A stretch of 64,000 bases of DNA from the NCBI RefSeq assembly GCF_000025005.1, contig NC_013526.1, positions 620,001-684,000 on the forward strand. Direction: 5' to 3'. This DNA is from Thermobaculum terrenum ATCC BAA-798 (GTDB lineage Bacteria; Chloroflexota; Chloroflexia; Thermobaculales; Thermobaculaceae). The translations under genes and the position numbers were made by a program. The notes beneath the pieces are model-generated. The model was not told where the DNA came from. It did no database searches and was given only the letters and a program-made list of their open reading frames with translations. This document shows positions 2,038-18,650 of the stretch, piece after piece (position 1 is the stretch's first letter; each line of letters begins with the position of its first letter).

Positions 2038-4482
2038 TCAGCTCAAGGTCCACTCCTTGCCGCAGGCCCGTACGCGCACGCCCCGCAGGTCGCCCCATAG
2101 CACCTTCACCTCGGGCACCCACTGGCCGGTCTCGGCATCTAGCCGCTGGGTGTAGGTGCCCCATCCCAGCCCCGTGGACCAGAAGCAGGTGAAGACTCCT
2201 TCCTCCGCGGAAGCAGCCGTTACGGGACGAAAGGTCATCTCGCGCCTGGCCACATCGCAGGTGAAACCGCTGAGGGCGAGCAGGAGGGCCCAGCTGGCCA
2301 TGGACCTGGCGTAGTGGTGACCACATTCCACCTCGTCCCAAGGGTTTCTACGCCGGCCATCGTGACGGCCCCGCACGGCGCCCACTATTTGCAGGCCCTC
2401 CTCCAGCAACCCCTCGTAGATCATGTGGGCGGCCACCTGGTACTCGCTGCCGGTGAACACCTCGTCGGAGTACGGGAAGGGGAACGTGGGCTGGCCACCT
2501 CGTGGCCATGTGCACATCAGCAGTCCTGCCTCATCGTTGAGAGCAAACGTCCTCTGGCAGTTGACGTGCTCGCTCAGATCAGCCCGGAAGTTGTAGCGCC
2601 ATATCGAGCGGAGGGCTTGACGCACATGCTCCTCGGGTACGAGATATCCCATCCCCAGGACATGCGCCTGCAACTGCCCTAGTAGCTGGTCAGCCAGGCA
2701 GCCCTTTCCGTGCTGGTATGGCCAGGCATCCTCATCACCCAGCTGTTCGTAGTACTCGCCGTTCCAGAGCAGCTCGTCCAGGCGATGACTACCCCGCTCG
2801 AACACCTCTCGGCAGCGCCGTGCCAGATTCGCCTCCCCCAACACCTCCGCGAGCTCTTCCACCGCCCGGAGGGCGGCCAGGTAGTACAGCCCACACAGCG
2901 GGTTGGGGCCGTAGAACTCTACGTCGTAGGTGTTGTGCTGACGCCCATCAAGCACGCCGTCGCCATCGCCATCCCACTGCGCGCTGGCGTACGCCAGCGC
3001 GCTCTTCACCCCTGGCCAGACTCGCCGCAGCCACTCCATGTCGCCGCTCAATCGCCACTCGCGCAGCACCCTTAGGATGCTGCCCATCTGCCCGTCGGCC
3101 GCGGCCTCCGGTTGCTGGGACCCCCAGGGCCACACAAACTGCTCTCCGAACGTCCGGTACGTCCTAAAAGCCATCCAGCCACGCTCATCCGTCTCCACTT
3201 CGAATTCTATCCGTCGCATCTCCCTCTCCAGTGATGGGAAGAGGAACGCCAGGGTGTGGGCGTAGCTCCACACGTGCGTACAGCTACCCTCACAGCATCC
3301 CCTGTCGTCAAAGCAACCCTCCCACGCCAAGAACCTCCCGTCCTCCAGCCAGAAACAGGTATTGCTCCGCAGGGGCACGATGTTGGCCGATAGCGCCTCC
3401 AGCACGCAGTCGGGCAACGTGCTCTCAAACAGGGCGTCATGGAACAGTTTGGTGCCCTGTTCGAGCCTGGCCAGGTGCGTAAAGACGTAGCCGGCCACAT
3501 CCCAGGAGCTAGCGAAGCGGGAGGCGTAGTGGTTGCGGACGATCTCCCCAGCCTCCTCCCGCCAACTGTGGGGGCGATTCGGGAAGTACCAGGTAAGCAC
3601 GAAGCGGTAGGTGTGGGTCTCCCCTGGTGCCAGCTCGTCCCTCAGCCCTAGAGAGCAGGTGTCGGTCTTGCCAGGCTCCGAGGGGGACTCGTAGCCCAGG
3701 TCCTCCAGCCGCCCATCCTCGCTGAGGTCCTGCCAGAACTCGCGCAGGTAATCCCACCAAGCCCCGCGCAGCCACGCCCGCTTGTAGGTGATCACGGGAT
3801 GATCGGTCGCCAGCGTCATGTCGCCATAGCGCAGATCATCCGACGGCAGTGTCGTCGAACGCAGCCACAGCCCTCTGTACACCTCCGACTCCCTGTACTC
3901 GTTCTGGTTGCCGCCCGCCCCGCGGTAGTTGCCGAAGCGGTCGAAGGTCACCCCTCCCACCGGATTGGTGAGCGAGCCCACCAGCGTGAGCGCCACCACC
4001 TCGTCCGAGGTGTTCTCCACGGTGTAGCTGAGGATCGCGCAGGGGATGCCGGAATCCTCCGGGCACAGAGGGATCAGAGGGGTGTACGCCTCCAGGCTCA
4101 CCCGTACCGGCAACGCTGGGTCTGCCAGCTCCACCCATGCCAGCGGGTACTCGCCTCGGAAGCGACTGTGCCGGCACCGGGGAAGCCCAGCCCCGGTCGA
4201 CGGGTGGTAGCCGTGCGAGCCATCGTGGGGCGGTTGGATCGGCCCCTCCAAGACCCTCGTCACACATCTGCCCGATGCCGTCCTAGTCCACAGGGCAAAG
4301 AAGGTATTGGGCAGGCGGTTGCCCTTGGCAGGACGATTGCATATCTCCCAGTCCCTGAGATCCCCCCTAGCCCCCAGCGAGACGTTGCCTGTGCCTATCC
4401 CACCAAGCGGGAACGCCAGCGCCGTCGCCTCCGGCCCGTACTCCCTAGTGTACCTGCTCACTTCCATCCCTCCCACAGACAC
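2038..4482 (-). CDS. GH116-family beta-glucosidase (GBA2/DUF608-like)
   Basis: This 814-residue protein probably removes beta-linked glucose or xylose from glycosides in the cytoplasm; there is no signal peptide. The N-terminal beta domain begins with the family signature PLGGIGTG (about residues 25-32). The catalytic (alpha/alpha)6 barrel occupies about residues 350-790. CCEGSCTHVWSYA (about 396-408) holds the candidate nucleophile E398, and NTYDVEFYGPN (about 517-527) holds the candidate acid/base D520, by analogy with TxGH116. The GTG start at 4482 follows the upstream stop TAA by one base, implying translational coupling; an internal ATG at 4467 is an alternative but its GGGAGG is too close. 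It is the last gene of the 2.0-11.4 kb minus-strand cassette. Exact substrate is not determinable here. Confidence 0.9.
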   Translation of the reverse strand: MSVGGMEVSRYTREYGPEATALAFPLGGIGTGNVSLGARGDLRDWEICNRPAKGNRLPNTFFALWTRTASGRCVTRVLEGPIQPPHDGSHGYHPSTGAGLPRCRHSRFRGEYPLAWVELADPALPVRVSLEAYTPLIPLCPEDSGIPCAILSYTVENTSDEVVALTLVGSLTNPVGGVTFDRFGNYRGAGGNQNEYRESEVYRGLWLRSTTLPSDDLRYGDMTLATDHPVITYKRAWLRGAWWDYLREFWQDLSEDGRLEDLGYESPSEPGKTDTCSLGLRDELAPGETHTYRFVLTWYFPNRPHSWREEAGEIVRNHYASRFASSWDVAGYVFTHLARLEQGTKLFHDALFESTLPDCVLEALSANIVPLRSNTCFWLEDGRFLAWEGCFDDRGCCEGSCTHVWSYAHTLAFLFPSLEREMRRIEFEVETDERGWMAFRTYRTFGEQFVWPWGSQQPEAAADGQMGSILRVLREWRLSGDMEWLRRVWPGVKSALAYASAQWDGDGDGVLDGRQHNTYDVEFYGPNPLCGLYYLAALRAVEELAEVLGEANLARRCREVFERGSHRLDELLWNGEYYEQLGDEDAWPYQHGKGCLADQLLGQLQAHVLGMGYLVPEEHVRQALRSIWRYNFRADLSEHVNCQRTFALNDEAGLLMCTWPRGGQPTFPFPYSDEVFTGSEYQVAAHMIYEGLLEEGLQIVGAVRGRHDGRRRNPWDEVECGHHYARSMASWALLLALSGFTCDVARREMTFRPVTAASAEEGVFTCFWSTGLGWGTYTQRLDAETGQWVPEVKVLWGDLRGVRVRACGKEWTLS

Positions 4483-4483
4483 G

Positions 4484-5356
4484 TTATAGATATGTTATGT
4501 CGATCTCCCCGGTGGACAGCCCGCAGAGGATCGGTGCGCCCGGCCGGAGCCCCGAGGGCGCGCACAGCGCCGTCACGAACCGCTCATCCCCCCATTCCCC
4601 GAGCACGTCCCAGCTGTCGCCGCTGTCCCCCGACACAAGCAGCTGTGTCCCGCGCGCGACCAGCAGGCACCTCCCTCCCGGGCCGAGCGTGCAGGCGTTG
4701 ATCGGTCCGCCTCCTGGCGGGAGGGGTACCGCTCGCCAGGAGTGGCCGCCGTCGGTGCTGGCCCATAACCAGCCCGCCTCGGTCCCGGCGAGCAGCGGTG
4801 GTGGGCCTCCGTCGGGCCCAGCGGCCAGGCACAGCACGGCGCCAGCACAGGGCCACGCGGCCGCACAACGCCAGGGACCTTCCAGGCCGGCCACGAACAC
4901 CCCGCCCCCTTCGGTGCCCGCCAGGAAGAGCACTCGCTCATCTTGGACGCACACCTCGAGGGACAGCACCCGCCAGTCCAGTAGGCCGAAGTTCCTCGGC
5001 GTCCAGCTGCCGAGGTCCTCGGTCCAGTAGACGCCCTCGTGCGCGGTGGCCACGACCACTAGAGGTTGCCCCACGCGCTCCCAGCTGGCGATCGCCGTCA
5101 CTATCGTGTCCGCCGCCACGGGAGGGTAGTCCTTCCAGCTGACCCCACCATCGCTCGTTGCCAGCACCTTACTGCCAACAGATGCCACGAGACCGCCGGG
5201 GCCCAGCCAAGAGACCGCCGTCACCGGCTGCGGACTCGGGCACACTAGCGCCCAGCTCTGGCCGCCGTCCTGCGACAGCCTGATGCCGTCGCTGCAGGCT
5301 GCCGCCAGCCTGCCGTCCTCGCTGTAGCTTGGGGATGCTGCGACCTTGAACACCAC
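4484..5356 (-). CDS. BNR/Asp-box beta-propeller protein (YCF48/sialidase-fold-like)
   Basis: About 290 residues with regularly spaced Asp-box motifs of the S/T-x-D-x-G-x-x-W type: DGGQSW, SDGGVSW, TEDLGSW, STDGGHSW and SGDSGDSW, roughly 45-55 residues apart. This is typical of a 6-7 bladed propeller. No signal peptide or transmembrane helix is visible, so it is probably cytoplasmic. The frame stays open upstream into the chaperonin gene, but those residues are Arg/Pro/Cys-rich shadow. GTG at 5356, preceded by GGGAG and 13 bases after the chaperonin stop, is the most likely start. Asp-box proteins include glycosidases and assembly factors (YCF48/HCF136 for photosystem II). I see no sialidase Arg triad or RIP motif, so an assembly or binding role fits better than hydrolysis. 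Function is unknown. Confidence 0.75.
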   Translation of the reverse strand: MVFKVAASPSYSEDGRLAAACSDGIRLSQDGGQSWALVCPSPQPVTAVSWLGPGGLVASVGSKVLATSDGGVSWKDYPPVAADTIVTAIASWERVGQPLVVVATAHEGVYWTEDLGSWTPRNFGLLDWRVLSLEVCVQDERVLFLAGTEGGGVFVAGLEGPWRCAAAWPCAGAVLCLAAGPDGGPPPLLAGTEAGWLWASTDGGHSWRAVPLPPGGGPINACTLGPGGRCLLVARGTQLLVSGDSGDSWDVLGEWGDERFVTALCAPSGLRPGAPILCGLSTGEIDITYL

Positions 5357-5369
5357 TCCGACACACTCC

Positions 5370-6977
5370 CTACGGCACCACGGAAACCTGGGGTCTGGTG
5401 GGCCTGACCAGGGCGCAGATCGCCACGGCGTCCGCGGCCGCGCCCACTGCGATCTGCAGCGCCGTGCGCTGGACCGGCAGGGGGTCCAGCACGCTGGCCT
5501 CCCACATGTCGACGCTCTTGCCGACGCGCATGTCCACCCCAATGTCGCCCGACTCCGCGGCCATCACGGCCAGCGTCGGGCCGGGCTCCAGGCCGGCGCT
5601 CTGAACTATGTGGTGGCACGGCGATCGTAGGGCGCGCGCCATCGCCCGACAGATCGCACGCCGTGACTCCTCCCCCTCCAGGTCGCCCAGGGCCCACAGG
5701 TGATGCGCACACCGTAGGAGCGCCACCCCACCGCCGGGCAGGACGCCGGACTCCAGCGCCAGCTGCGCGGCCCGGATCGCCTTGCGAGCGCGCCCCTTCC
5801 TCAGGTCGATCTCCCCCGCATGCCCTCCCACCATGATGGCCCCGCTACAGCCCGTGAGCCGCCCCAGCCTCCACCTGTACCGCTCCCTATCCTCAGGCTC
5901 CTTGCTGGAGCCGAGGCGTCCAGCCAGCCAGTCGACGTGAGCGCACAGCTGGCGCACATCTCCCCTCCCACCCAACACCCCGAAGCCATCTCGGTCGACT
6001 CGACATCGGCGCGCCCGACCAAGGTCCGTCGCTGTCAGGCCACGCAGCGTGGCACCGGTGACCCGCAGCAAGGGCCTGCCTCCTGTCAGGTGTGCAAGAT
6101 CCCACAACGCGTCCATCTGCTCCTGCGACGTGCCCCCCGGCGTACGCGCCACGACCGTCGGTAGTCCCTCTCCCTGCTCAGCTGCCAAAAGCCACGGAAG
6201 CGCCTCCTCGGTCACCTCGTTTGCCAGGAGCACGAGGCTATGCGCCCCCAGCTGTCGCGCCGCCACTACCGCAGGCGCCAGATCCTTGGGATCGCGTACC
6301 TCGAGGTCGGTAAGAGCTATGGCCGGCTCAGCTAGCTCCGCACCCCCAGGAGCTTCGATCCTAGGGAGCAACAGCCCGCTGCCCCGCCAGTGGCTCCCCT
6401 GCAGGAGCTGGAGTTTATCCCTTGCGCCGTAGCCCGACAGCACCTCCAGGGCGGCCCTGGGCCCCAGCACGCGGAGGGCCTCGGCGACCAGCTCGGCCAA
6501 GCCGCGATCGCGACAAGCCGTCTCGCTGATCCCCACCAGTTGCCGCTGCCCATCTAGGGGTCGTGCCATCCTCTCCAGGTAGCTACACACGCTGGGCAGG
6601 TAGGACCTCATGGCCTCGGCCAACCGCTGGGGATCGTGCCCGGCCCGGACCAACCGGTGGACCTCCAGCAGGATGGTGCCGAACACCACGACGGCCGTGG
6701 CCGCCCCGTCTCCCACAGCCTGTGCTACCCGCCACGCCACGTGCCTAACGTACATAGCCCCCATGTTCTCCCAAGGATCCGGTAAGGCCACCACCGCCCG
6801 GGTCACGTCCGCCGCATCCTCCAGCACCCTGTAACCCCGATCGTCGATGGGCGACCGAACCAGCACCTGCCCCCCACCCGGTCCCAAGGTGAGCGCTACC
6901 AGCGACAGCATCTGCTCCACCCCACGGATAAAGGCAGCACTAGCTGCCTCTCCCAGCAGGACACCTCCCGACGTCAC
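5370..6977 (-). CDS. Divergent GroEL/Cpn60-like chaperonin with altered ATPase site
   Basis: The 535 residues align along the whole of GroEL: TLGPGG (about 30-35), VGDGAATAV (88-96), an apical domain ending in HLTGGRPLL (about 296-304), GVLPGGGVAL (411-420) and VLDP-x4-RTAL near the C-terminus. By eye, GroEL Asp52 and Asp87 correspond to D54 and D90, and Asp495 is kept. Catalytic Asp398 falls on K399 (RARKAI against RVEDAL). The C-terminal GGM tail is missing and no GroES gene is nearby. GTG at 6977 follows the COG0523 gene stop by five bases. It is therefore a specialised paralogue rather than the housekeeping chaperonin. It could be a slow or non-hydrolysing ATP-dependent holdase or scaffold for a neighbour (GTPase, propeller or GH116). 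The family call is firm; the role is inference. Confidence 0.85.
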   Translation of the reverse strand: MTSGGVLLGEAASAAFIRGVEQMLSLVALTLGPGGGQVLVRSPIDDRGYRVLEDAADVTRAVVALPDPWENMGAMYVRHVAWRVAQAVGDGAATAVVVFGTILLEVHRLVRAGHDPQRLAEAMRSYLPSVCSYLERMARPLDGQRQLVGISETACRDRGLAELVAEALRVLGPRAALEVLSGYGARDKLQLLQGSHWRGSGLLLPRIEAPGGAELAEPAIALTDLEVRDPKDLAPAVVAARQLGAHSLVLLANEVTEEALPWLLAAEQGEGLPTVVARTPGGTSQEQMDALWDLAHLTGGRPLLRVTGATLRGLTATDLGRARRCRVDRDGFGVLGGRGDVRQLCAHVDWLAGRLGSSKEPEDRERYRWRLGRLTGCSGAIMVGGHAGEIDLRKGRARKAIRAAQLALESGVLPGGGVALLRCAHHLWALGDLEGEESRRAICRAMARALRSPCHHIVQSAGLEPGPTLAVMAAESGDIGVDMRVGKSVDMWEASVLDPLPVQRTALQIAVGAAADAVAICALVRPTRPQVSVVP

Positions 6978-6982
6978 CTGCC

Positions 6983-8098
6983 TTACCCCTCAGTAGGCTT
7001 AGTGGAGCGGTAGATCGGGAGCACTGACCTGCCGGCCACATCTAGGCGATAGGTGGGTCGCGGGGGTGAGGGCGCAAAGCACTCCACGGCCTCTACAACT
7101 AGCTTGGCGCCCGAGGCCGCCGACGCCGCGGCGAGCGTCTGCTGGGCGATCTTGGCCAGCAGATCGGGCTCGAGGCCGACACGGGCGTTGAGGACGAAGC
7201 GGCTAGCTGCTACCTCGTGCGCGCCCGGTGAGCTGTCCCATTGCACCTCTGGAAGCGCATCCAGCAGGCTCGCCCTGTATTGCGCCTCAGCCACCTGCAG
7301 GTACAACTTGAGGTGCCCCACAGGCGCCCCCCTCTTCTGGGCCGCTTGCCCGATCGACGTCAGCACCCGCTCCGCCCACCCCTTGAGCTTGTATGGGCCA
7401 TCGGCGCTGAGGCTCCCGGAGCAGTTGAGCCACCCCAGAGCGGCCTCCGCGGCCGCGTAGCGATCGTAATCCAGGGCGAGATCGCGATCGGCGGCGGTTG
7501 TTCCTCCGAGCACGAGCTCGAGCCAGGCATCCACGCTCTCTCCCGTTAGGGCCGAGATGGGCACGCATCGGCTCGCCGGATGGGCGGCTCTCACCTCCCT
7601 GAGTACCTCCGGCGCCCTGTAACTCAGCAGGTCGACCTTGTTGATCACCAGCAGCTCAGCCTCCTCAAGCTGCTGCTGGTAGAGGTAGCGGATGTGCTCG
7701 GGCAACTTCGAGCTGTCTTTGGTTGGATCTATCAGGACGCTTAGGGGAGCCACCTCTAAACCTGGATGCATCCGCAGGAGGGGGCGAACCACCGTTGCCA
7801 GCAGGTCGGTGCAGCTGCCCACGGGCTCGGCCAGCACCACCTGACACCCGAGGGTGAGCTCAGCATGCAGGGCGTTCAGGAGCTCGTCGAAGCGGCAGCA
7901 GAAACACCCGCCCGTGACCTCCATCACCGGGACCGACGCCCCTCGCGCCAGCGCTGTGTCCACCAGCTGAGTCCCCTGGTCGTTCGTCACCACCCCCACC
8001 TTGAGCCCCCGCCGCTCAAGCTGCCGTGCCGCCCTCAGCAGCAACGTCGTCTTCCCCGCACCCAGGAATCCTCCGACCAGCACGACCCGTCCGCTCAT
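6983..8098 (-). CDS. COG0523 (CobW/ZNG1-type) GTPase, putative metallochaperone
   Basis: A 371-residue P-loop GTPase. Walker A is GFLGAGKTT (about 10-18). The family metal-binding CxCC motif is GCFCC (C65, C67, C68), and the base-recognition motif is INKVD. COG0523 proteins use GTP hydrolysis to deliver Zn, Co or other metals to client proteins (nitrile hydratase activators, ZNG1, CobW). The C-terminal domain (about 230-371) is divergent and lacks an obvious His-rich tail. The start ATG overlaps the stop of the upstream membrane-protein gene (ATGA), and the chaperonin gene begins five bases after its stop, so the three are co-translated. The context suggests a client made by the same operon, possibly the chaperonin or GH116. 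Which metal is involved cannot be told. Confidence 0.85.
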   Translation of the reverse strand: MSGRVVLVGGFLGAGKTTLLLRAARQLERRGLKVGVVTNDQGTQLVDTALARGASVPVMEVTGGCFCCRFDELLNALHAELTLGCQVVLAEPVGSCTDLLATVVRPLLRMHPGLEVAPLSVLIDPTKDSSKLPEHIRYLYQQQLEEAELLVINKVDLLSYRAPEVLREVRAAHPASRCVPISALTGESVDAWLELVLGGTTAADRDLALDYDRYAAAEAALGWLNCSGSLSADGPYKLKGWAERVLTSIGQAAQKRGAPVGHLKLYLQVAEAQYRASLLDALPEVQWDSSPGAHEVAASRFVLNARVGLEPDLLAKIAQQTLAAASAASGAKLVVEAVECFAPSPPRPTYRLDVAGRSVLPIYRSTKPTEG

Positions 8099-8775
8099 GT
8101 GCCACCTCCCATCTCAGCTTCCAGACTGCGCAGGCAAACCACGAGGCTAAACATGCCGTAAACCCCTGGTAGAAAGAACATCAACCCCGAGCTCACCAGC
8201 AACAGCAGCACACAGCACCCTACGCAGAGGCTCAGCAGCCCGAGGGTGTACACCACGTGCCGCGAGGCCAACGCCATGGCACCCACGACGGCACGGCGCC
8301 ACGGCCAGCCCTGGAGGACCAGCAGTGGGAAGCCGTAGGATGCCAGGCACCAAGCTAGGCAGACGCCCACGATGTCCGCCGCCAGCCCCACCCAAGCGAT
8401 CCCCGCCACCTCCGGTCCCGAGAGCGCTGGCAGCGTCACCAGGAGGGCACACAAGGGGAAGGCGCACACCGCACCCAGCCCGGACGCACGCGCCCACAGC
8501 CGCCACGGCCCGGGCACGCACGCTTCGTAGCGGCAGAGCCTGGCCTCGCTCCACAGCAGAAGGGCCCAAGCTGGCGCCACCAGCAGGACCAGCAACGGCA
8601 GGCATAGCCACACCCAGCCCCACCAGAGCGTGAGCCACGCGGGCAGCGTGCCCAGCGTGAACGCGAGGCTGAGCACGGCTACACCGGGCAAGTGGTCCCA
8701 CAGCTCCACGAGCGCCTCGTGCCACCAGGATGTGGGTTGGGGTGCCCAGATCTTATCAGTCCTGAGAGCCTTCAT
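8095..8775 (-). CDS. Small integral membrane protein (YesL/DUF624-like)
   Basis: A 226-residue protein with about five to six hydrophobic helices. The segments begin near VAVLSLAFTLGTLPAWL, WVWLCLPLLVLLVAPAW, GAVCAFPLCALLVTLPAL, VAGIAWVGLAADIVGV and a C-terminal pair from VVYTLGLLSLCV to GMFSLVVCL. Size, topology and position immediately after a CUT1 permease match YesL/DUF624 proteins, which often accompany sugar importers and have no settled function. The real start is ATG at 8775, which overlaps the permease stop (ATGA); the longer open frame upstream is shadow of the permease gene. The last bases overlap the GTPase start. The assignment to DUF624 rests on layout and general pattern, not on a motif I can prove. 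Confidence 0.65.
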   Translation of the reverse strand: MKALRTDKIWAPQPTSWWHEALVELWDHLPGVAVLSLAFTLGTLPAWLTLWWGWVWLCLPLLVLLVAPAWALLLWSEARLCRYEACVPGPWRLWARASGLGAVCAFPLCALLVTLPALSGPEVAGIAWVGLAADIVGVCLAWCLASYGFPLLVLQGWPWRRAVVGAMALASRHVVYTLGLLSLCVGCCVLLLLVSSGLMFFLPGVYGMFSLVVCLRSLEAEMGGGT

Positions 8776-9887
8776 CCCTTCATCCCCGAGAACGCTATCC
8801 CCCTGATGATGAACCGTTGCGCCAGCAGAAACACCACCAGGATCGGTAGGATGGACAGCATGATGCCCGCGAGCACGTGCGCTCGGTTGCCCATCCCCAT
8901 GTATCCCTGCAGCGTGACGATCGCGATCGGCAGGGTGAACTTGTCCCAGGACCGCAAGAAGATCAGGGGGCCGAAGAAATTGTTCCAGGATCCCAGGAAG
9001 GTAAATATGCCCAGCGCCGAGAGCGCTGGGCCCACAAGCGGCAGCATTATCTGGAAGAATATCCGGAAGAATGAGGCTCCATCGATCTTGGCCGCGTCCA
9101 TCAGCTCCTGCGGTAGCGTCATGAAGTGCTGGCGCAGCAGGAACACGATGGAGATAACCGTTGCGAAGAACGCCGTCGGGGTGATCAGGGGTAGGGTGAT
9201 GTGGCGCACCAGCTGTAGGCGATTGGCACCATCCACCTTCGCTGCCTCGTACAGCTCGTCGGGAATGCCCTGCAACCCGGCCAGGTACAGCACCATTAGG
9301 TAGCCACAACTCTTCCACACATCGTACAGGATAACCGAGACCAGCGCCAGGTGAGGATCGGTTAGCCACGGTAGAGGGGCCAGACCCAGCTGCTGCAGGA
9401 TGTAGTTCAGCACTCCTCTATCCTGTGACAGGATGAACCTCCACACCAACGCAAGCGACGCGGTAGTGGTCAGGACGGGAAAGAACAGCGCCGTTCGCAG
9501 CAGATAGCGCAGGAAGGCCGGCATCGCCCGATTGACCCCCATAGCTAGCAGGAGCCCGAGCACCTGGTTGAGGAAGGTAGCGCCCACCACGATCTGCAGG
9601 CTGTTCCAGTACACCGTACGCAGCCTGCGATCGCCAAGCAGCTGCTGCAGGTTCTCCAGGCCCGCCCACCTGGGCGGCGTGAGCAGGTCGTAGTGGGCAA
9701 AGACTAGCGCGAAAGACGCCAGGATGGGGATCACGAGGAAGATAGCCAGCGCCGCGATGGCGGGTGCAATCAGCACGTAGGCCGAGCCCCACTCCTGGGC
9801 CCTTGCGCGGCCAACTCCAAACAGGGACAGCTTCCTGACACCCATCGCATCCAGCTGTCGTGCGCGCACTTGGCTCCTCCTAATCAC
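8772..9887 (-). CDS. Chimeric CUT1 sugar ABC permease (UgpA N-terminus fused to UgpE C-terminus)
   Basis: Residues 1 to about 246 read as a UgpA/MalF-type permease: long N-terminus, RFILSQDRGVLNY and the EAA loop ELYEAAKVDGANR (about 211-223). The sequence then jumps to the second half of a UgpE/MalG-type permease: VFLLRQHFMTLPQ, a second EAA loop ELMDAAKIDGASF (about 261-273), WNNFFGPLIFL and the UgpE terminus IIRGIAFSGMKG. The UgpA C-terminal helices with the usual TGGGP loop and the UgpE N-terminal half are both missing. The join is near 9150. A deletion of roughly 0.7 kb between adjacent permease genes would explain this; a misassembly is the alternative. Every other importer here has two separate permeases. 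A working transporter would need a partner subunit or a homodimer with altered topology. Confidence 0.85.
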   Translation of the reverse strand: MIRRSQVRARQLDAMGVRKLSLFGVGRARAQEWGSAYVLIAPAIAALAIFLVIPILASFALVFAHYDLLTPPRWAGLENLQQLLGDRRLRTVYWNSLQIVVGATFLNQVLGLLLAMGVNRAMPAFLRYLLRTALFFPVLTTTASLALVWRFILSQDRGVLNYILQQLGLAPLPWLTDPHLALVSVILYDVWKSCGYLMVLYLAGLQGIPDELYEAAKVDGANRLQLVRHITLPLITPTAFFATVISIVFLLRQHFMTLPQELMDAAKIDGASFFRIFFQIMLPLVGPALSALGIFTFLGSWNNFFGPLIFLRSWDKFTLPIAIVTLQGYMGMGNRAHVLAGIMLSILPILVVFLLAQRFIIRGIAFSGMKG

Positions 9888-9899
9888 CTTGCGGCCACC

Positions 9900-11354
9900 C
9901 TACTGCGCCCGCGCTTCCTGGCATGGGCAGGTCCGCGTCGTGCTGGCTGCGAACACTCTCCAGCTGCGCGATTCCTCCTTCAGCTTGTCCATCTCAGCCT
10001 GCAGCTCCTGGTGTGCCAGCTTAACCGCCTCCTGCACGGTCTTCTGACCGTTCCAAATGGTGGAGTAGTGGCGGTCCAGGATCGGCTCGATGATGTTGAA
10101 GTTAGGCGGCGATGGCACGGTCCTGGCGTAGTCGAGCGACTCGTAGAAGATCTCGGTGTTCTCCGGTCCGTACTCCCTGAAGGCCGGCTCCTCCGCGACC
10201 GACCGCAGCGCCGGGATGTTGCCCCCCAGCTCCACCATGGCGCGAGAGGCCGTCTTCCCGGAGAGCACCTTCACCGCCTTCCAGGCCTCGTTGGGGTGCT
10301 GGCTCATAGTGGCGATGCCCCAGCCGTCCGTCCCCACAACCGTCTTGTAGGGGCCAGACTTATGGGGTTGATACTGGAGGTCGTAGGAGGTGAACTTCTC
10401 GGCCAGGGAGGCGCCTATGCACCAGCGGCCGCAGGTGCGCATCACTAGGTGGCCAGCATGGAACTGCGCATTCTCATCCCAGCCGGCTGGGTTCGGCGCC
10501 ACCCTGTGCTTGCGGATGAGGTCGACGAGGAACTGCAGGGTCTCGGCGACCTTGGGGTCGAGCATGTTGGAGTCTTGCCAATCGTCCGTGAGCGAGGAGG
10601 TGTCGTTGTTGAAGTACCAAGCGCACATCCCGAACATGCCCGCTCCCCAGAAGGAGTACGCATAGCGATCCTTGGCGGTGCCGCGGACATTGGCCACCTG
10701 CTTGCATACCCCGAGGAAGTCGTTCCAAGTCCAGTCCGGGCTGGGCGGCTTGAGCCCCTCCTCTTGAAAGATCTTCGTGTTGTAGTAGATCACCATGTTG
10801 TTCCAAGAGAACGGGAACTCCATCTGCTTGCCTTCGTACTGCATCATCTCCCGGAGGGTCTTGTGGATGTCGTTGTGCAAGGTGTCATAGGCCTCCGAAT
10901 CCGCCTGGATGAACTCGTCCAGCGGCCGCAGGACACGCTTGGAGCTCAGGAGGGCGAGCCCCTCTATGGCGATCATGATGACGTCGAGCTGTTCCCCCCC
11001 AGCGATCTGCGTGATGATCTTGTCCGCGTAGGCCGACCACCCACCCTGGATGGAGGTCTGCGTCACCTTCAGCCTGATGTCCGGGTATCGCTCCTGCGCC
11101 TCCTTGAGGGCCGTCTTCCAAGTGTTGATCGGCATCTGTGAGGTGGCGATGATGGTGATCGCCCCCTCCTTGGGAGGTTGCTCCACCACCGCCTGTGTGG
11201 GGCTGGCCCCCGGCGTGCCCTGCGCTGAGCCCGGCCCCATCTGCCGTCCACCACACGCCGCGAGGGCGAGGCTGGCTGCCGCTCCGGCTGCGAGCCTCAG
11301 CATCTGTCTACGGCTCATCACCGCCCCATTTTGGAAAAGTCCCTCGTCCTGCAT
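9900..11354 (-). CDS. CUT1 sugar-binding lipoprotein (extracellular solute-binding protein)
   Basis: A 484-residue solute-binding protein for the importer in the GH116 cassette. The N-terminus has a Tat motif (SRRQMLRLA) followed by a lipobox ending LALAAC, so the mature protein is anchored by a lipidated Cys outside the membrane. The central and C-terminal parts show the family-1 binding-protein pattern (IIYYN-like VIYYNTKIF, WTWNDFL, GGNIPAL). ATG at 11354 has a strong GGAGGAG site; the longer open frame upstream is not needed. The last 20 or so residues are Arg/Cys-rich and unlike the family, perhaps a tail altered by frameshift. First gene of the cassette, 12 bases before the chimeric permease; likely repressed by the divergent LacI protein. 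Confidence 0.9.
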   Translation of the reverse strand: MQDEGLFQNGAVMSRRQMLRLAAGAAASLALAACGGRQMGPGSAQGTPGASPTQAVVEQPPKEGAITIIATSQMPINTWKTALKEAQERYPDIRLKVTQTSIQGGWSAYADKIITQIAGGEQLDVIMIAIEGLALLSSKRVLRPLDEFIQADSEAYDTLHNDIHKTLREMMQYEGKQMEFPFSWNNMVIYYNTKIFQEEGLKPPSPDWTWNDFLGVCKQVANVRGTAKDRYAYSFWGAGMFGMCAWYFNNDTSSLTDDWQDSNMLDPKVAETLQFLVDLIRKHRVAPNPAGWDENAQFHAGHLVMRTCGRWCIGASLAEKFTSYDLQYQPHKSGPYKTVVGTDGWGIATMSQHPNEAWKAVKVLSGKTASRAMVELGGNIPALRSVAEEPAFREYGPENTEIFYESLDYARTVPSPPNFNIIEPILDRHYSTIWNGQKTVQEAVKLAHQELQAEMDKLKEESRSWRVFAASTTRTCPCQEARAQ

Positions 11355-11490: not shown

Positions 11491-11519
11491 TTGAATTTAG
11501 GCTTTGATCCTTGTATAGT
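11491..11519 (+). promoter_or_regulatory. Predicted promoter of the LacI regulator gene
   Basis: TTGAAT (11491-11496), 17 bases, TATAGT (11514-11519), about 38 bases upstream of the TTG start at 11557. Good consensus and spacing. It makes the TTG at 11491 unlikely as the translation start. Confidence 0.55.
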
Positions 11520-11556
11520 TGTACGCAGCAGGAATGAATCGCGTGGGGGGAGAGGG

Positions 11557-12579
11557 TTGAAGAAGTCTGCGACTTTGAGAGACGTAGCCGAGGCGGCCAA
11601 CGTGTCCATGGGCACGGCCTCGCTGGTGCTGAACGGGAAGAGGGGCGTAGCCGCTGCTACCCGGGAGCGGGTGCTGGAGGCGGCACGCAGGCTCGGCTAC
11701 CGGGCCTCCCCTCGCCGCAGCTTGCGCACCCCCCACGACATAGTGGTACTGGTTGAGCGTACCCCCCTCAGCCCGAGCTCAGATCCGTTCAACAAACCTA
11801 TACTGCAGGGCATGGAGACCGTCGCGCGGGGCAGGGGGTATCGACTCATACTGGAGTTCGTCGAGCAGGGCGAGCCGCCCAGCCTGGATCGCTGGACGCA
11901 GGATGGTGTAACCGGGCTAGTGATACTAGGAGGTGGGGATCTGGACGAGGACTGGATCCGGGCCGCGCTGGCGACGGGTCTGCCCCTCGTGATGGTAGAT
12001 CACTACGTGCCTGGCTTGGAGGTGCCCACGGTCGTGCCCGACAACTTCGGAGGCGCCTACGCCATGACCAAGCACCTCTTGGAGCAGGGCCACAGACGCA
12101 TCGGGTTCGTCCGTGGCCCATCCAAGTACTGGACGCTGGGAGAGCGGTTGGCTGGCTACCTGCTCGCCATGCAGCAGGCTGGCCTGGCGCCACCCCCCGA
12201 GCTCATCCCCCCCAGGGTGTCGCACGGCGAGGAGAAAGGGTACGGAGAGACGCTGATGCTGCTGGACCTTGAGGAGCCGCCGACCGCGATCTTCGCCGTC
12301 AGCGATAAGACGGCTATAGGGGTTTACCGAGCCTTGAATGAGCGTGGCATATCCGTGCCCGGGCAGATCTCGGTGGTGGGCTTCGACGATATCGAGCTGG
12401 CTAGGACGGTCAGCCCACCCCTAACCACCGTCAGAGTGCCCTGCGAGGAGATGGGCAGGGTCGCCCTTGAGCGCCTGCTGGCGCTGATCGAGAGCGGCGA
12501 CTGGAGGGAGGATAATATGCGGTGGACGCTGCCGACACGGGTGATCCCGCGCAGCTCGGTAAGGAGGCTGGGCAGTTAG
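11557..12579 (+). CDS. LacI-family transcriptional regulator
   Basis: A 340-residue repressor. The N-terminal helix-turn-helix reads TLRDVAEAANVSMGTASLVL with the hinge helix near RRLGYRAS; the periplasmic-binding-like effector domain follows, ending with VVGFDDIELARTVSPPLTT. It probably binds operators in the 11.36-11.56 kb divergent region and senses a sugar imported or released by the GH116 cassette. The start chosen is TTG at 11557 after a GGGGGGAGAGGG tract. A TTG at 11491 would add 22 residues, but that triplet lies inside the predicted -35 box. The damaged fucose-isomerase-like gene follows 17 bases after its stop in the same direction. Confidence 0.9.
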   Translation: MKKSATLRDVAEAANVSMGTASLVLNGKRGVAAATRERVLEAARRLGYRASPRRSLRTPHDIVVLVERTPLSPSSDPFNKPILQGMETVARGRGYRLILEFVEQGEPPSLDRWTQDGVTGLVILGGGDLDEDWIRAALATGLPLVMVDHYVPGLEVPTVVPDNFGGAYAMTKHLLEQGHRRIGFVRGPSKYWTLGERLAGYLLAMQQAGLAPPPELIPPRVSHGEEKGYGETLMLLDLEEPPTAIFAVSDKTAIGVYRALNERGISVPGQISVVGFDDIELARTVSPPLTTVRVPCEEMGRVALERLLALIESGDWREDNMRWTLPTRVIPRSSVRRLGS

Positions 12580-12596: not shown

Positions 12597-14027
12597 GTGG
12601 CAGAGAGAAGGAGACCCAAGGTAGGTGTGCTGACGTTCAGCGACGGTCGGGAGTACGCCCACGCTCCTCAGGTGGAGGAGAACCTGAGGTTTCAGGCAAG
12701 GTTGACCGGCGCGCTGGCGGGCATGGGACTGTAGGTCGTGGCAGGCGATCTTGTGTGGAGTAACGAGACCGCCCGCAGCCAGGCACGCCGGCTGGCGGAG
12801 GCGGGTGTGGAGTGCACTATCTTCAACTACGCCGTGTGGGCCTTTCCACAGTTCAGCGTAGTGGCCAGCCACTTTGCCCCACGCCCGATCCTACTGCTCG
12901 GCCAGATCAACCCCTCCAAACCAGGCATGGTCGCGCTCCTGGCCGCGGCAGGAGCGCTCGAGCAGATCGGCGTGGTCCCCACGAGGGTGTTCGGGGACGT
13001 CCAGGACGAGCAGGTGTCTCGCCAGCTGTTGGCAGCCATCCGCGCTGCCCATGCCCTGCATGCCCTGCGCGGGGAGACCTATGGGTTGATCGGCGGTCGC
13101 TCGATCGGCATCAACACCGCCGTTAGCAACACCGACCAATGGGCCAAGCTCTTCGGCGTGGACGTAGAGCACATCGACCAGTACGAGCTCGTGGTGCGCA
13201 GCGAGCGCTTGCTCGCCGATGCCTCCCAAAGGATAACCAGTGCCAGGGAGTGGCTTGAGTCCAAGGTGGCCAAGGTGCACTACGATGGGCGGCAGCTGAC
13301 TCCGCAGCTGCTCGAGCGGCAGATAGCCGCCTACTACGCCTGCCTCGAGCTCATTGAGCAGCGTGATCTGGACTTCTTGGGCATTAAGGGACAGCCCGAG
13401 CTCACCGAGAGGTTCGCCACGATGGACGTGGCCGAGGCTTTCTTGAACGATCCTTACGACTGGGACGGCCCGAAGGAGCCGGTGGTGTGCGCCACGGAGG
13501 CCGACATGGACGGCGCGCTCACTATGGAGGTGCTCAAGCATATAGCTGGCAGTCCCGTGCTGTTTGCGGACGTTCGCCACTACTACAGCGACCTAGGCAT
13601 TGTCGATCTCGTCAACTCAGGACAGCATCCTACATACTTCGCGGGCCACACCAGCGATCTAGAGGTCAACCTCAGGCAAGTGGAACTCAGGCCACAGGGC
13701 TTCTACTTCCCAGCCGGCGGTGCGTCGGTGTTCCATCTAGCGGCTCCGGGCCGCGTGACGCTGGCCAGGCTGAGCCGGTTAGACGGGTCCTACCGCATGC
13801 ACATCCTGCGGGCCGAGTTCGTGCGCTTTGATGAGCAGTTGGAGCAACGCATCGTGCGCGAGGTGCAGCCGAATTGGCCCCACGCCTTCGCATCCTTGGA
13901 ATGTAGAGTGGAGCGGTTTCTGGAGGAGTTCCCGACAAACCACATCCATGCTGTCTACGGCGACTATGTGCCCGAGCTGATGAAGTGGTGCGAGTACGCT
14001 GGCATCGAGCCGGTGTTGTTGGAGTAG
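12597..14027 (+). pseudogene. L-fucose/L-arabinose isomerase-family protein interrupted by in-frame TAG
   Basis: With the TAG read through, the frame gives 476 residues of a FucI-like ketol-isomerase, which interconverts aldoses and ketoses at a Mn2+ site. The start GTG at 12597 has AGGAGG six bases upstream, and the first 45 codons read well (PKVGVLTFSDGREYAHAP). Codon 46 (12732-12734) is TAG, and the same frame then continues to a complete C-terminus. The core includes CATEADMDGAL and FADVRHYY, which hold the Glu and Asp expected to bind metal, and HPTYFAGH. A CAG-to-TAG change (Gln in GLQVVAGD) is the simplest cause. A GTG at 12738 could restart translation but would lack the N-terminal strand. 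TAG ends several neighbouring genes, so it is a normal stop codon here. Confidence 0.8.
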
Positions 14028-14047
14028 TGCCCAGGGAATGCGGGCAC
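14027..14047 (+). terminator. Hairpin after the isomerase gene
   Basis: GTGCCC (14027-14032) pairs with GGGCAC (14042-14047) over a nine-base loop, overlapping the last base of the isomerase stop codon. There is no T-run, so termination strength is doubtful. Confidence 0.35.
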
Positions 14048-14636
14048 ATCCAGCTCAGGGGTGTCCTAGCAAGGCTGGACGGCACGACGCCAGCGCAGGC
14101 GAAACATGCCTTGCCGGCTGCCCAAGCGGCATCCAGACCATAGGGGACGCTGTGCGCGGCAGTTTGTTGGCTCGCGATCCTCTACAGCCTCGCTCTCAGT
14201 CGGTATGGATCACGAGATCGACGAAGTCACGCGCTGGTAAGGGGAGTAACCACCGCCCTCATCTGCCCGAAGGGCTGGCCACAGAGATGTTGTGTCTGCG
14301 CCATAAGCTTAAGGTGTGGCGGGTCACGGGACCACCTTCAAAACCCCCCATCTGCAGAGCATGGCCCGATCGGCGCGATGTGCTTGAGGAGGTGCGGCAC
14401 ATGCCCGAGGGTTCCCAGAGACGTGGCGCTCTGCGTTACCTCCGGTTACAGACGGGTCCAGGGGCGAGAGGCGCACGGGCAGCTGTCTCAGCGACTCGGG
14501 CACCCAGCAGCCGCTAATGAGATGCAAGATCATCCCCGCTGTGGATCCAGCGGCCTTCCAAGGCATGGTCGCAACCGCCCGTACTAGCTCATCGCCTAAC
14601 GGCCGCCGGAGGACATCCTCGATGGCGAGGCATAGA
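14048..14636. other. No intact gene
   Basis: Both strands give only short, unrelated frames. Nothing recognisable was found apart from weak protein-like stretches on the minus strand. Probably the eroded continuation of the neighbouring dehydrogenase remnant. Confidence 0.4.
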
Positions 14637-15345
14637 TCAATAGCGCACCTGGATCCTTGTCCCGAGACGCAGGGACTCACGTACGGCATCTAGCACCTGC
14701 ATGTCCGCAAGGCATGTACGTCCCGAGGCTATAGGCTCCCTCCCCAGCAGGATACACTCGGCGAAGTGGGTCACCTCTGCCATGTAGTTATAGAAATGTG
14801 GTAATCCTTCCGGTTGCACCTCATGCACTAGCCGCTCAGCAGTGTGCCTCCGTCCTGTAACCACCGTTCCATGATAACTCTTCCCTGTACCGCCTGGGTG
14901 ATGTGCCCCTCAATGGTGAGGCGTCCATGGGAGCCTTCAAGCTCAATCAAGGAAGAGAGATAGGTGAATCCTGCTTCAATAACACCAGGAGTACCGTCTT
15001 GTAACAGGAAGGTAAAGACCAACGAATCACAGTCGGTAAGGCCATGCAGCTGCCGAACCGTGCCCATGGCAGCCACCGACTGGAGGCGTTGCCCCGTGAG
15101 GTTACGTACGGAGAATATAGGGTAAACCCCAACGTCCATCATGGGCCCTCCTCCATGTTGGGGATTCAGCCGCCGGCAGCCGTAGTCCAGTCATTGCCTA
15201 TCCTCACTTCTCCTAGAAGTCCTGAGACTCCAGGCCCATCCGAAGGGACCGCTACAGCCTTCCCACCTATATCATTTCCTCGCTCGCTACTTGATCCACT
15301 TACAGCACCTACAACCACCTCGCCTCCCAGGAGGTCATTCCCAAT
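14637..15345 (-). pseudogene. Gfo/Idh/MocA-type sugar dehydrogenase remnant (frameshifted)
   Basis: Reading the minus strand, three pieces in different frames line up with the C-terminal half of a Gfo/Idh/MocA oxidoreductase. They are GLLGEVRIGNDW (about 15205-15170), then LNPQHGGGPMMDVGVYPI (about 15160-15100) continuing to an EAGF-containing strand and VIMERWLQDG (to about 14840), then HFYNYMAEVTHFAECIL-GREPIASGR (14637-14864). At least two frameshifts separate them (near 15165 and 14850). The Rossmann NAD(P) domain is absent or unrecognisable. The family oxidises or epimerises sugars with NAD(P). The remnant probably belonged with the isomerase gene upstream or the kinase operon that follows. 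The region 15346-15625 holds nothing else I can recognise. Confidence 0.75.
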
Positions 15346-15625
15346 CTGAGGATGGCAGCTATGGATCCTACAAGAGTGTCACCGTGGGAATAGAGGGTGT
15401 TCTTGCCCTGGGCACACATGGATGTGCTAGTTTGGGTCCGGACTACGAACACCGTCGTGTGAGCTTGAGGTCCGTGCGACGGAGCCACTACAATCGACCT
15501 ACGGACATGGACGGCGGTTGGGCAATGGGGAAGACCAGGCACAGCAGGGGGCGACATGTTGGCAGCTTCTGGCAAAAACGTGTTGGGGCCGCCAGTGATC
15601 CGCGGTGAAAGTTATGCGCTGGCGC

Positions 15626-17095
15626 CTAGTCTATAGCGGTACTACTCCACATCTTGGACAGTTCCCTACAGGTTTCCTCCAGCCTTAGGTGCTGCTCATA
15701 CAACTGAAGGTAGTGCTGTCTACAGTCCTCGTTCGGCTCCACCACATCGATCGACACGCGCCACTCATCAAACGAGATGCCGCCCAGGGCTATGCCGGCC
15801 GCGATGGCCGCTCCCCTGGCACCCGCCTCCTGCACCCTGGGCACCAGCACGGGATGGCCCAGCACGTCCGCCAGCAGCTGGCACAGGCGCTGGGACCGAG
15901 CCCCTCCCCCGCAGAGGTAGATCGGCCCTCCGGACCACCCAGCGCTCTCCAGGCAGTGGCGCGCCGTGCAGGCTATGCCCTCGCAGAGCGCCCGCACCAG
16001 ATCGGCGCGCTCCACGTGCAGGTGGAGGCCCGCGAGCACCCCCCTGGCCCTCATGTCCAGCACGGGAGCCCGCTCCCCACCAGGAGAGAGGTGCGGCAGG
16101 ACCATCACGCCCCTGGCGCCGATGGGCGAGGCGTCGAGGTGTGAGTCCAGGTCCTGCGGGCGGAGCCCGAGCAAACGCGTCAACCAGTCCAGGCAGGCGG
16201 TGCCCACCATGGCTGGCATGGCCCGCAGCCACCGGTCGGGGTCCACAAAGCACAGCGTCATACCGCCCAGGCACGTAGGACTTGGGGGACTATCCACGAC
16301 CACCTCGCAGGCCAGCGTAGTGCCTAGGATGACAAGTGCCTCACCGACATCGCGCCTCAGTCCCAGCCCCAGCGCACACGCCGGCAGGTCGAAGGGGCCA
16401 GCATGCACCGGCGTGCCCTGCGGTAGGCCAAGGAGGGCGGCTCCCTTCCGGTTCAGGGCCCGCAGCGGCCCCGGCAGGGGATCCACCGGCGGCAGCAGGT
16501 GTCGCCAGGCGCTCAGGCCACAGAGGCGCACAATGTCCTCGTCGTAGCGCCGGCTGCGGACGTCCAAGAAGGGCAGGGAGGCGTCCGAGGGGTCGGTGGC
16601 CACCGCGCCCGTGAGGGCGTGGACCAGCACGTCCTTGCAGTACAGCGCCGCCCCCGCCGCCGCCAGCCTCTCGGGCTCGTGCCGGTCCAGGTAGGCCAGG
16701 ATCGAGGCGGACGCCCCGGGAAAGAGCACGTTGCCATGCCTGCGGGCCACGGCCTCGACCACGCCCTCCTCGAGCCATCGCTCGACTACCGGGATAGCCC
16801 TCGAGTCCAGCCATAATATGGCGTGGCCTAGAGGATCGCCGTTGCGATCAAGGAGCCACAGGCCGTCACCTTGAGCAGTGATGCCGATGACCTCTACCCG
16901 GTGCGGCAGCCGGGAGGTTAGTCGGGATACTACCTGCCCGACCTTCGAGATCAGCTCCGCCTGGTCCTGCTCGAACAGCCCCGGGGCAGGCGACAGCACC
17001 CTGTTTGATTCCGCCTCTATGCCCAACACTTCGCCTTGCTCCGAAAACGCCACCGCCTTGACCACGGATGTGCCTGCATCAACGCCGATCAGCAT
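15626..17095 (-). CDS. FGGY-family carbohydrate kinase (erythritol/xylulose kinase-like)
   Basis: A 489-residue ATP-dependent sugar or polyol kinase of the hexokinase/actin fold. The N-terminal phosphate loop is GVDAGTSVVKAV, ITAQGDGLWLLD and LWLDSR lie in domain I, GPFDLPACALGLG carries the likely catalytic Asp, and CGGGARSQ and EAGARGAAIAAG complete the ATP site. QGDGLWLLD and LDSR remind me of erythritol and L-xylulose kinases, but that is a weak hint. ATG at 17095 lies inside the end of the dehydrogenase gene (17-base overlap). It is the last gene of the operon running down from DeoR, so it may phosphorylate the imported polyol or ketose. Ends with TAG. Confidence 0.85.
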   Translation of the reverse strand: MLIGVDAGTSVVKAVAFSEQGEVLGIEAESNRVLSPAPGLFEQDQAELISKVGQVVSRLTSRLPHRVEVIGITAQGDGLWLLDRNGDPLGHAILWLDSRAIPVVERWLEEGVVEAVARRHGNVLFPGASASILAYLDRHEPERLAAAGAALYCKDVLVHALTGAVATDPSDASLPFLDVRSRRYDEDIVRLCGLSAWRHLLPPVDPLPGPLRALNRKGAALLGLPQGTPVHAGPFDLPACALGLGLRRDVGEALVILGTTLACEVVVDSPPSPTCLGGMTLCFVDPDRWLRAMPAMVGTACLDWLTRLLGLRPQDLDSHLDASPIGARGVMVLPHLSPGGERAPVLDMRARGVLAGLHLHVERADLVRALCEGIACTARHCLESAGWSGGPIYLCGGGARSQRLCQLLADVLGHPVLVPRVQEAGARGAAIAAGIALGGISFDEWRVSIDVVEPNEDCRQHYLQLYEQHLRLEETCRELSKMWSSTAID

Positions 17096-18140
17096 GCCTT
17101 ATCTCCATCACCTCGGGGTTCAGCACATGCTGCAGAGTCTCGCCTCGCAGGTAGCGGCCCACTTGCACGGCGGCGAGCCTAGCCGCCCGCTTGGCGGTCT
17201 CCCTTGTAGCTCCGGCGATGTGGGGCGAGACCACTACCCTGGGCATTGTAAGCAGCGGCGAATCCGGGGGTAAAGGCTCCTCAGGGAATACATCCAGTGC
17301 GGCTGCCCACAGGTGACCGCTCTCCAGCGCCTCGATGAGCGCCGAGTAGTCCAGCAGTCCTCCCCTGGCGGTGTTCACGAGGGCCGAGCCCCTGGGCATC
17401 AGCTGGATCTCATGCCGTCCTATGAGCCCTGCTGTCTCCGAGGTCAGCCGCGCGTGCAGGCTCACGACCCTGGAGCTCCGGAGCAGCTCCTCCAGGGAGG
17501 TCCTCGCCGCCCCGACCGCGCGCACCTCCTCGTCCGTCACGTACGGGTCGTGCACCAGCACTTGGGCGCCCAGCGCGGTCAGCGCCCTGGCCACTATGCG
17601 GCCTATCGCGCCGAAGCCCACCAGCCCCACGGTGCTGCCCCCGAGCTCGAAGCCGGCCTCCTCGTAGGCGTACAGGTCTCCCCGCCAGCGGCCGCCCACG
17701 AGGCTGGAGTGCGCCTCCGCGATCCTCCGGACGGCGGCCAGGATCATCCCGAGGGCGTACTCCGCGGCGGCCTGCGCGTTCCTCCCGGGGATGTTGCACA
17801 CCACCACGCCGTGGCGCGTAGCGGCCTCCAGGTTGACGTTGACAGGTCCGCCCCTTGTGACGACCACCAATCGCAGGGAGTCGGCCGCAGCGAACACGCG
17901 GGCCGTCAGAGGGGCCATTTCCGTAACGACGATCTCCTTACCTTGGATATGAGCGAGCACGTCCTCTTCACTGCCCGAGGCCTCGTCCACCTCCGCGACA
18001 CGACCGAAGGGCTCAATGGGCCAGGAGAGCTCCACGGCCGTCGTGCTCACCTGCTTACCCACCTCCTCCCGCAAGGCCTCCTCCAGCAGGGCACACCGGA
18101 CGAACTTATCTCCCAATAGCAGTACCGTTCTAGCAGACAT
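17079..18140 (-). CDS. D-isomer-specific 2-hydroxyacid dehydrogenase family protein
   Basis: 353 residues with the SerA/PdxB-type NAD-binding domain. The Rossmann motif is VGLVGFGAIGRIVAR, VNTARGGLLDYSALIEAL follows, and the catalytic Arg, Glu and His fall in the family's usual places, with His in VVSPHIAGAT. The substrate is a 2-hydroxy acid or its keto form, perhaps a sugar acid or phospho-sugar acid from the same pathway. Start ATG at 18140 overlaps the RpiB-like gene stop (TGATG), indicating coupled translation. Closely related enzymes cannot be separated by eye, so no substrate is proposed. Confidence 0.85.
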   Translation of the reverse strand: MSARTVLLLGDKFVRCALLEEALREEVGKQVSTTAVELSWPIEPFGRVAEVDEASGSEEDVLAHIQGKEIVVTEMAPLTARVFAAADSLRLVVVTRGGPVNVNLEAATRHGVVVCNIPGRNAQAAAEYALGMILAAVRRIAEAHSSLVGGRWRGDLYAYEEAGFELGGSTVGLVGFGAIGRIVARALTALGAQVLVHDPYVTDEEVRAVGAARTSLEELLRSSRVVSLHARLTSETAGLIGRHEIQLMPRGSALVNTARGGLLDYSALIEALESGHLWAAALDVFPEEPLPPDSPLLTMPRVVVSPHIAGATRETAKRAARLAAVQVGRYLRGETLQHVLNPEVMEIRHADRR

Positions 18141-18631
18141 CAGCTATCGCCTCCGGAATTGGTCAGGTGCCCCTGCTCGTAATCGCATATCAGCTGGATC
18201 TTGTGCGCCGACGGGGAGCTGGGGTCGAACTCGTACGTGAGCCACTGACGGACCACATACCAGGCCAACTCCGGTCCCACCACCCTTGCGCCTAGGCAGA
18301 GCACCTGGCAGTTGTTGGACAGGACCGACCTCTCGACCGAGTAGGGATCGTACGCCACCGTCGCCCTGACCCCACGCACCTTGTTGGCGGATATCGCCAT
18401 CCCTATGCCGGTCCCGCACACCAAGACGGCGCGATCGATGGCTCCGCTGGCCACCGCCTCCGCCACCTGGATCCCCACGCGGGGGTACTCGCAGCTGTCG
18501 GAGGGATCGCCCACCCCGAAGTCCACCACCTCGGCCACCCTGGGATGGTCCCGCAGCCTGTCTCGGATGAGGTTCTTCAGCTCGGCTCCCAGCCCATCGG
18601 CCCCTACACCTACCACATAACGCCTTGCCAT
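18140..18631 (-). CDS. RpiB/LacAB-family sugar-phosphate isomerase, probably tetrose-4-phosphate type
   Basis: 163 residues. The catalytic loop VCGTGIGMAISANK keeps the proton-transfer Cys (C72) and T74. Two ribose-phosphate isomerase features are missing. The DH pair of the first loop (GCDH in E. coli RpiB) reads GVGAD here, and the ring-opening His98 is Ser (S105 in VLSNNCQV). A tetrose 4-phosphate cannot close a furanose ring, so it would not need that His. From memory, EryI-type D-erythrose-4-phosphate isomerases carry the same SNN pattern. With DhaK and DhaL alongside, an erythrulose-4-phosphate/erythrose-4-phosphate isomerase is the best guess. ATG at 18631 has GGAGGTGG upstream. The TTG at 18646 would give a weaker start. 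Confidence 0.8.
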   Translation of the reverse strand: MARRYVVGVGADGLGAELKNLIRDRLRDHPRVAEVVDFGVGDPSDSCEYPRVGIQVAEAVASGAIDRAVLVCGTGIGMAISANKVRGVRATVAYDPYSVERSVLSNNCQVLCLGARVVGPELAWYVVRQWLTYEFDPSSPSAHKIQLICDYEQGHLTNSGGDS

Positions 18632-18650
18632 ACATTCCACCTCCAATGTC

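Follow-up and report, generated by a model that had tools for sequence, protein, structure and literature searches.

What does a GroEL-like protein do in the middle of a row of genes for sugar uptake and breakdown, and with which of its neighbours does it work? The question arises from a stretch of 64,000 nucleotides of Thermobaculum terrenum (positions 620001–684000 of chromosome 2), referred to below as the window; strain YNP1 has two chromosomes of 2,026,947 and 1,074,634 bases (PMC3035366). A preliminary description had reported here seven genes running in the same direction with gaps or overlaps of 13 bases or less, and had read the chaperonin, the GTPase and the propeller among them as a maturation module for one client, most simply the GH116 enzyme. 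The arrangement was borne out by the open reading frames (ORFs), which follow each other between 11354 and 2038 on the minus strand with all gaps and overlaps within 13 nt. Profile matches agreed with the identities given to the binding protein, the permease, the cobW-domain GTPase, the Cpn60 protein and the GH116 enzyme. Comparison with related loci suggests that the row joins two independent pairs, chaperonin–propeller and COG0523–GH116. The seven genes are the following:

9900–11354, minus strand: sugar-binding lipoprotein of an ATP-binding cassette (ABC) importer (profile match)
8772–9887, minus strand: hybrid CUT1-type permease (profile match and half-by-half match to permeases 1 and 2); 12 nt gap to the binding-protein gene
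8095–8775, minus strand: orphan integral membrane protein of 226 amino acids (aa); 4 nt ATGA overlap with the permease gene
6983–8098, minus strand: COG0523/CobW-type GTPase with P-loop, CxCC and NKxD motifs (cobW profile); 4 nt overlap with the membrane-protein gene
5370–6977, minus strand: chaperonin-like protein of 535 aa (Cpn60 profile, GroEL-fold model); 5 nt gap to the GTPase gene
4484–5356, minus strand: cytosolic Asp-box seven-bladed beta-propeller (model), GTG start; 13 nt gap to the chaperonin-like gene
2038–4482, minus strand: GH116 enzyme of subfamily 4, predicted exo-beta-D-arabinofuranosidase of 814 aa (profile and ExoMA2 residue alignment); 1 nt gap to the propeller gene

Relatives of the chaperonin-like protein were collected by a chaperonin search of class and phylum relatives and by a DNA pattern scan for the clade-specific motif GAMLxRHxxW, and 101 non-redundant members were found besides the canonical GroELs. 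Two tree methods placed all of them in one group apart from canonical GroEL, and the clade received a support of 100 in a tree of 60 representative members from which columns 52 and 398 had been left out. On these alignments the clade is monophyletic and GroEL-derived.

The gene following the chaperonin-like gene on the same strand encodes an Asp-box propeller in 58 of the 90 derived loci with a visible downstream gene (58 non-redundant loci, the window included), most of the gaps being between −4 and about 50 nt. Sugar ABC importer genes lie within four genes of the chaperonin-like gene in 53 of the 97 derived members. Neither feature was present in a control set of 20 canonical GroEL loci from same-class relatives, most of them from genomes also carrying the chaperonin-like gene (propeller 0/20, importer 0/20). 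Fisher tests against this control gave p-values of 3e-8 for the propeller and 2e-6 for the importer, ignoring shared ancestry; the loci cannot count as independent, the controls are few and the gene calls in GC-rich draft contigs are mechanical. A search of 150 class relatives at E ≤ 1e-30 likewise gave propeller genes of which the majority adjoin a chaperonin-like gene. The pairwise distances of chaperonin and propeller were correlated over 27 loci (r = 0.86), and in the 17 loci that also include a binding protein the correlation was 0.80 between chaperonin and propeller, 0.52 between chaperonin and binding protein and 0.27 between propeller and binding protein. The preliminary grouping of chaperonin and propeller as a functional pair is thus supported by adjacency and correlated trees, as is its association with sugar importers by the neighbouring importer genes, and the chaperonin and the propeller very probably act as one unit. 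The full set of seven genes was met nowhere else among the loci examined and only sub-pairs of it recur in other loci, the chaperonin–propeller part among them, so the seven-gene module was rejected as one conserved unit.

The identification of the Asp-box propeller held as well: the protein was modelled as a beta-propeller with a predicted local distance difference test (pLDDT) value of 89 and seven blades, as read from the model, and its best structure match was YCF48 (PDB 5oj3), followed by Gbeta/RACK1. It begins at its first blade and has no signal peptide.

The chaperonin-like protein of the window falls below the cut-off of the GroEL equivalog model TIGR02348 (219.7 vs 582.1 bits) and exceeds that of the broader Pfam family Cpn60_TCP1 (115 vs 34.3 bits). 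Its AlphaFold2 model (pLDDT 89.8) includes the complete GroEL fold with equatorial, intermediate and apical domains, the best structure match being Thermus Cpn60 (template modelling score 0.86, 528 aligned columns). In the alignment, numbered according to E. coli GroEL, Asp398 is replaced by Lys in the window copy while Asp52, Asp87 and Asp495 are kept, and the protein has a C-terminal Pro and no GGM tail. Among the 97 derived members Asp398 is kept in 11 and replaced by Arg in 46, Asp87 is kept in 92 and Asp495 in 94; a C-terminal Pro is present in 84 and the GGM tail was seen in none. Also apical residues are altered in comparison to GroEL, including the change of Y203 to Arg or His. The GroEL mutant D398A binds ATP normally and has about 2% of its ATPase activity left (PMC5855711), and binding without turnover would therefore be expected in the members lacking Asp398. 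Judged by these residues, the derived members are very probably hydrolysis-impaired. The preliminary description had not noticed that the catalytic Asp is lost from the chaperonin, and a folding cycle of the usual kind, driven by ATP, is therefore improbable.

No groES was found with the derived members, in contrast to the early-branching L103 and L116, which have groES upstream and keep Asp52 and Asp398. The single groES of the T. terrenum genome adjoins the canonical groEL on chromosome 1 and none lies beside the chaperonin-like gene. In the ten genomes checked there was one GroES per canonical GroEL, and neither an extra GroES nor a groES beside the chaperonin-like gene was detected. Both Asp52 and Asp398 are kept also in L090, L095 and L100, in which the propeller is already present. 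This suggests that the gene first parted from groES and acquired the propeller and that Asp398 was lost afterwards, the basal forks of the tree being poorly supported.

On balance, we consider it somewhat more likely than not that the clade forms a non-cycling ring with the propeller as its resident partner, serving carbohydrate operons in Chloroflexota. The GroEL-derived protein would still assemble into a ring, which would bind nucleotide with little or no hydrolysis, and no GroEL–GroES cycle would therefore take place. The ring would then be a long-lived holding or assembly chamber and the propeller its obligate partner, as either resident client or cofactor. More tentatively, the complex may support the importer or the cytosolic glycosidases expressed with it, and in T. 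terrenum the unit would be placed in a predicted D-arabinan/D-arabinose locus alongside the independent COG0523–GH116 pair. A more specific mechanism, in which the seven-bladed propeller replaces the GroES cap by docking on the sevenfold, ATP-binding but barely hydrolysing GroEL-derived ring and the resulting static cage or scaffold serves in Chloroflexota to organise the proteins of sugar import and the glycosidases, appears improbable.

Several observations weigh against a non-cycling ring with an obligate propeller. Asp52 is kept in 58 of the 97 derived members, the window copy among them. The propeller is not adjacent in 32 of the 90 derived loci, of which L038 has one about 16 kb off on the same contig, and propeller genes without a chaperonin exist, directly after a Lon protease gene in L150 and after the gene of a Big_5 protein in L151. 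Some propeller-linked members keep Asp398 (L090, L095 and L100) or have Glu in its place; loss of the ATPase is thus not coupled to the propeller, and no significant association was found between propeller presence and Asp398 loss. The usual cargo limit of GroEL is about 60 kDa. Some species have double propellers of 570–720 aa, which exceed the usual capacity of the GroEL chamber; encapsulation is therefore disfavoured in those species, and the size favours a cofactor or external role there.

A part of the evidence would suit a propeller that is instead the dedicated folding client of the chaperonin, perhaps with slow or single-turnover use of ATP, and that alone serves the sugar operon. The adjacency of the two genes, their correlated trees and the propeller-linked members with intact Asp398 are in line with such a relation, and the eukaryotic chaperonin CCT binds seven-bladed WD40 propellers, beta-propellers being among its clients (PMC8544692). 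Most propeller-linked members, however, lack Asp398, a GroES partner is missing, the double propellers are apparently too large for encapsulation, and the related propellers of L150 and L151 do without a chaperonin. We regard a dedicated folding client as possible but doubtful.

Alternatively, the chaperonin-like protein might be a GroEL paralogue in decay that mobile sugar loci have retained by chance, or it might work only as a minor component of rings that it forms together with canonical GroEL. Canonical GroEL and GroES are encoded in the same genomes, the chaperonin-like gene is patchily distributed among the relatives, and no row of the tree is more divergent than the window copy (end branch 1.89), which lies near a permease that is a deletion fusion. 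Intact ORFs, shared signatures and the constant C-terminal Pro over nearly 100 loci nevertheless indicate selection, and the mean column identity and the confident GroEL fold likewise argue against decay. The identity of only 28–31% to canonical GroEL would make mixed rings unlikely. Chance retention or mixed rings thus seem an unlikely explanation, and the non-cycling ring with its propeller remains our preferred one.

Two side observations concern the propeller and its absence. The related double-length Asp-box propeller gene L150:5395-9638 overlaps the 3' end of the Lon protease gene by 4 nt, and such propellers may therefore also partner another protein quality-control machine. The chaperonin-like genes of L050, L051 and L052 have no propeller and lie near a GH2 enzyme, with a large protein of 1,086–1,091 aa encoded between the two genes in L050 and L051.

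The pattern scan covered 84,980 genomes and recovered 29 of 50 known members (recall about 58%); among the matches listed, no convincing member of the clade was found outside Chloroflexota. A chaperonin of the clade was present in 67 of the 80 pattern loci read among these matches, and the other 13 are from records named after other phyla. Locus L236, labelled 'Proteobacteria', matches G320, which a taxonomy search placed in Chloroflexota, and L238 ('Alphaproteobacteria'), a chimeric-looking contig, was rejected as a member from another phylum, its match being truncated to about 120 aa; the remaining pattern hits outside Chloroflexota were chance matches. A plasmid search gave, among the matches listed, only GroEL-like proteins at ≤33% identity. 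A role in anti-phage defence was also rejected, as PADLOC gave nothing convincing and its one match was to the GTPase (E = 0.006).

The GH116 enzyme is closest to ExoMA2 (PDB 8ic6/8ic7), an exo-beta-D-arabinofuranosidase whose nucleophile, acid/base and two substrate residues (E431, D557, R483, H446) are all conserved in the window protein. The alignment with 8ic6 was read with an apparent numbering offset of four residues, and the residue roles are those given in the ExoMA2 study (PMC10509167). The same study names Tter_0211 of T. terrenum, most likely the chromosome 1 paralogue, as a member of GH116 subfamily 4. The COG0523 GTPase matches PF02492 (92 bits) and includes the motifs GGFLGAGKT, CFCC and NKVD; no CobW_C domain was matched at E ≤ 0.01, and the alignment with YjiA was limited to aa 5–77.

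Had the row evolved as a GH116 maturation module, the GTPase would insert a metal and the chaperonin and propeller would fold the enzyme. The gene order of the window fits this, as does L040 with its order importer–chaperonin–propeller–GH116, the only other locus in which GH116 follows the chaperonin and propeller. GH116 orthologues (about 47–66% identity) in about ten genomes and the second copy in T. terrenum have, however, no chaperonin or propeller neighbours. ExoMA2, a subfamily 4 homologue, is active when produced in E. coli and is described as working by a retaining Glu/Asp mechanism without a catalytic metal (PMC10509167). GH116 was consequently ruled out as client on gene neighbourhoods. 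Close COG0523 homologues are few, and two of them stand beside GH116 without a chaperonin, in L138 and in L142, the latter with a full row of binding protein, two permeases, COG0523 and GH116. The recurrence of the pair could be counted in favour of the maturation module, but no other chaperonin–propeller locus examined has a COG0523 gene. Metal delivery to the chaperonin or the propeller was rejected for the same reason. Both the place of the GTPase in a chaperonin module and the choice of GH116 as its client thus fell away from the preliminary reading; we consider such a module very improbable, and COG0523–GH116 is apparently an independent conserved pair. In L139, L140 and L143, all from one genus, the COG0523 homologue is found by a large, divergently oriented ORF of about 800 aa, which in L139 encodes an RCC1-type propeller protein.

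Upstream of the row lie genes that place it in context:

11491–12579, plus strand: divergent LacI-family regulator (profile match)
12738–14027, plus strand: L-fucose/D-arabinose-type isomerase (profile match)
15626–17095, minus strand: FGGY kinase, which together with the isomerase supports a D-arabinose pathway

The region 12738–18646 includes the isomerase, the FGGY kinase, a 2-hydroxyacid dehydrogenase and an RpiB-type isomerase, with a DAK2 protein adjacent, and is likely to encode D-arabinose catabolism. Since these genes accompany an ExoMA2-like GH116, the region looks like a locus for D-arabinan/D-arabinose utilisation. With its start at position 53 of the profile, the isomerase ORF may be short at its N-terminus. 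A promoter-like match, by consensus only, is present at 11436–11408 on the minus strand between the binding-protein and LacI-family genes.

The importer of the window is incomplete as a CUT1 set of binding protein and two permeases; two permeases are present in most related loci. Its single permease matches permease 1 of L040 in the N-terminal half (aa 25–235, 44%) and permease 2 in the C-terminal half (aa 248–370, 56%), forming an in-frame fusion from which about 260 aa of the permease pair are missing relative to L040. The hybrid, which retains two EAA-type loops, is probably abnormal, and an importer with this single permease would be unusual or dead. The label 'YesL-like' did not hold for the orphan membrane protein, which had no match in Pfam (E ≤ 1 for a 222-aa form, otherwise E ≤ 0.01) or NCBIfam (E ≤ 0.01), YesL/DUF624 included. 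Hydropathy-based signal-peptide scoring separated binding proteins poorly and was not used.

With GroEL/GroES the chaperonin-like protein shares descent, the full three-domain fold, Asp87 and Asp495, but it differs in the mostly missing Asp398, the lack of an adjacent groES and of the GGM tail, the altered apical residues and the propeller neighbour. Like chlamydial GroEL2 and GroEL3, it is a divergent bacterial GroEL paralogue without groES; it belongs, however, to another lineage and reaches only 69.4 (NF038370) and 79.0 (NF038369) bits against cut-offs of 600. We know of no propeller linkage for the chlamydial proteins. Thermosome models (groups II–III) gave about 46 bits, below their cut-offs of 400–671. 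The propeller has the seven-bladed Asp-box fold of YCF48/HCF136, with 5oj3 as the best PDB match, but only 14–15% identity and a score of 16.7 bits where the YCF48 model requires 326, and T. terrenum has, to our knowledge, no photosystem II. The association of CCT/TRiC with seven-bladed WD40 clients (PMC8544692) is an analogy only, as CCT is an ATP-cycling group II hetero-oligomer of eukaryotes and the window protein is group I-derived and lacks Asp398. The consulted part of the description of the Microbacterium D-arabinan locus, with ExoMA2 of GH116 subfamily 4, mentions no chaperonin-like, propeller or COG0523 gene. Searches of open-access papers found no description of a chaperonin–propeller pair, in agreement with the preliminary statement that no system of such composition had been described, and the conserved central pair seems to be undescribed.

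ATP hydrolysis and a lid of the GroES type are regarded as the defining features of how group I chaperonins work. A widespread natural lineage without groES and mostly without the hydrolytic residue, in which the fold has been kept and the gene has stayed beside those of a propeller and of sugar import, would be evidence that a chaperonin barrel can be turned to a new purpose. The series of members from groES-linked with intact Asp398, through propeller-linked with intact Asp398, to those lacking Asp398 would make change of partner and loss of the ATPase residue separable step by step, and the propeller partner would parallel the relation between CCT and WD40 proteins in eukaryotes.

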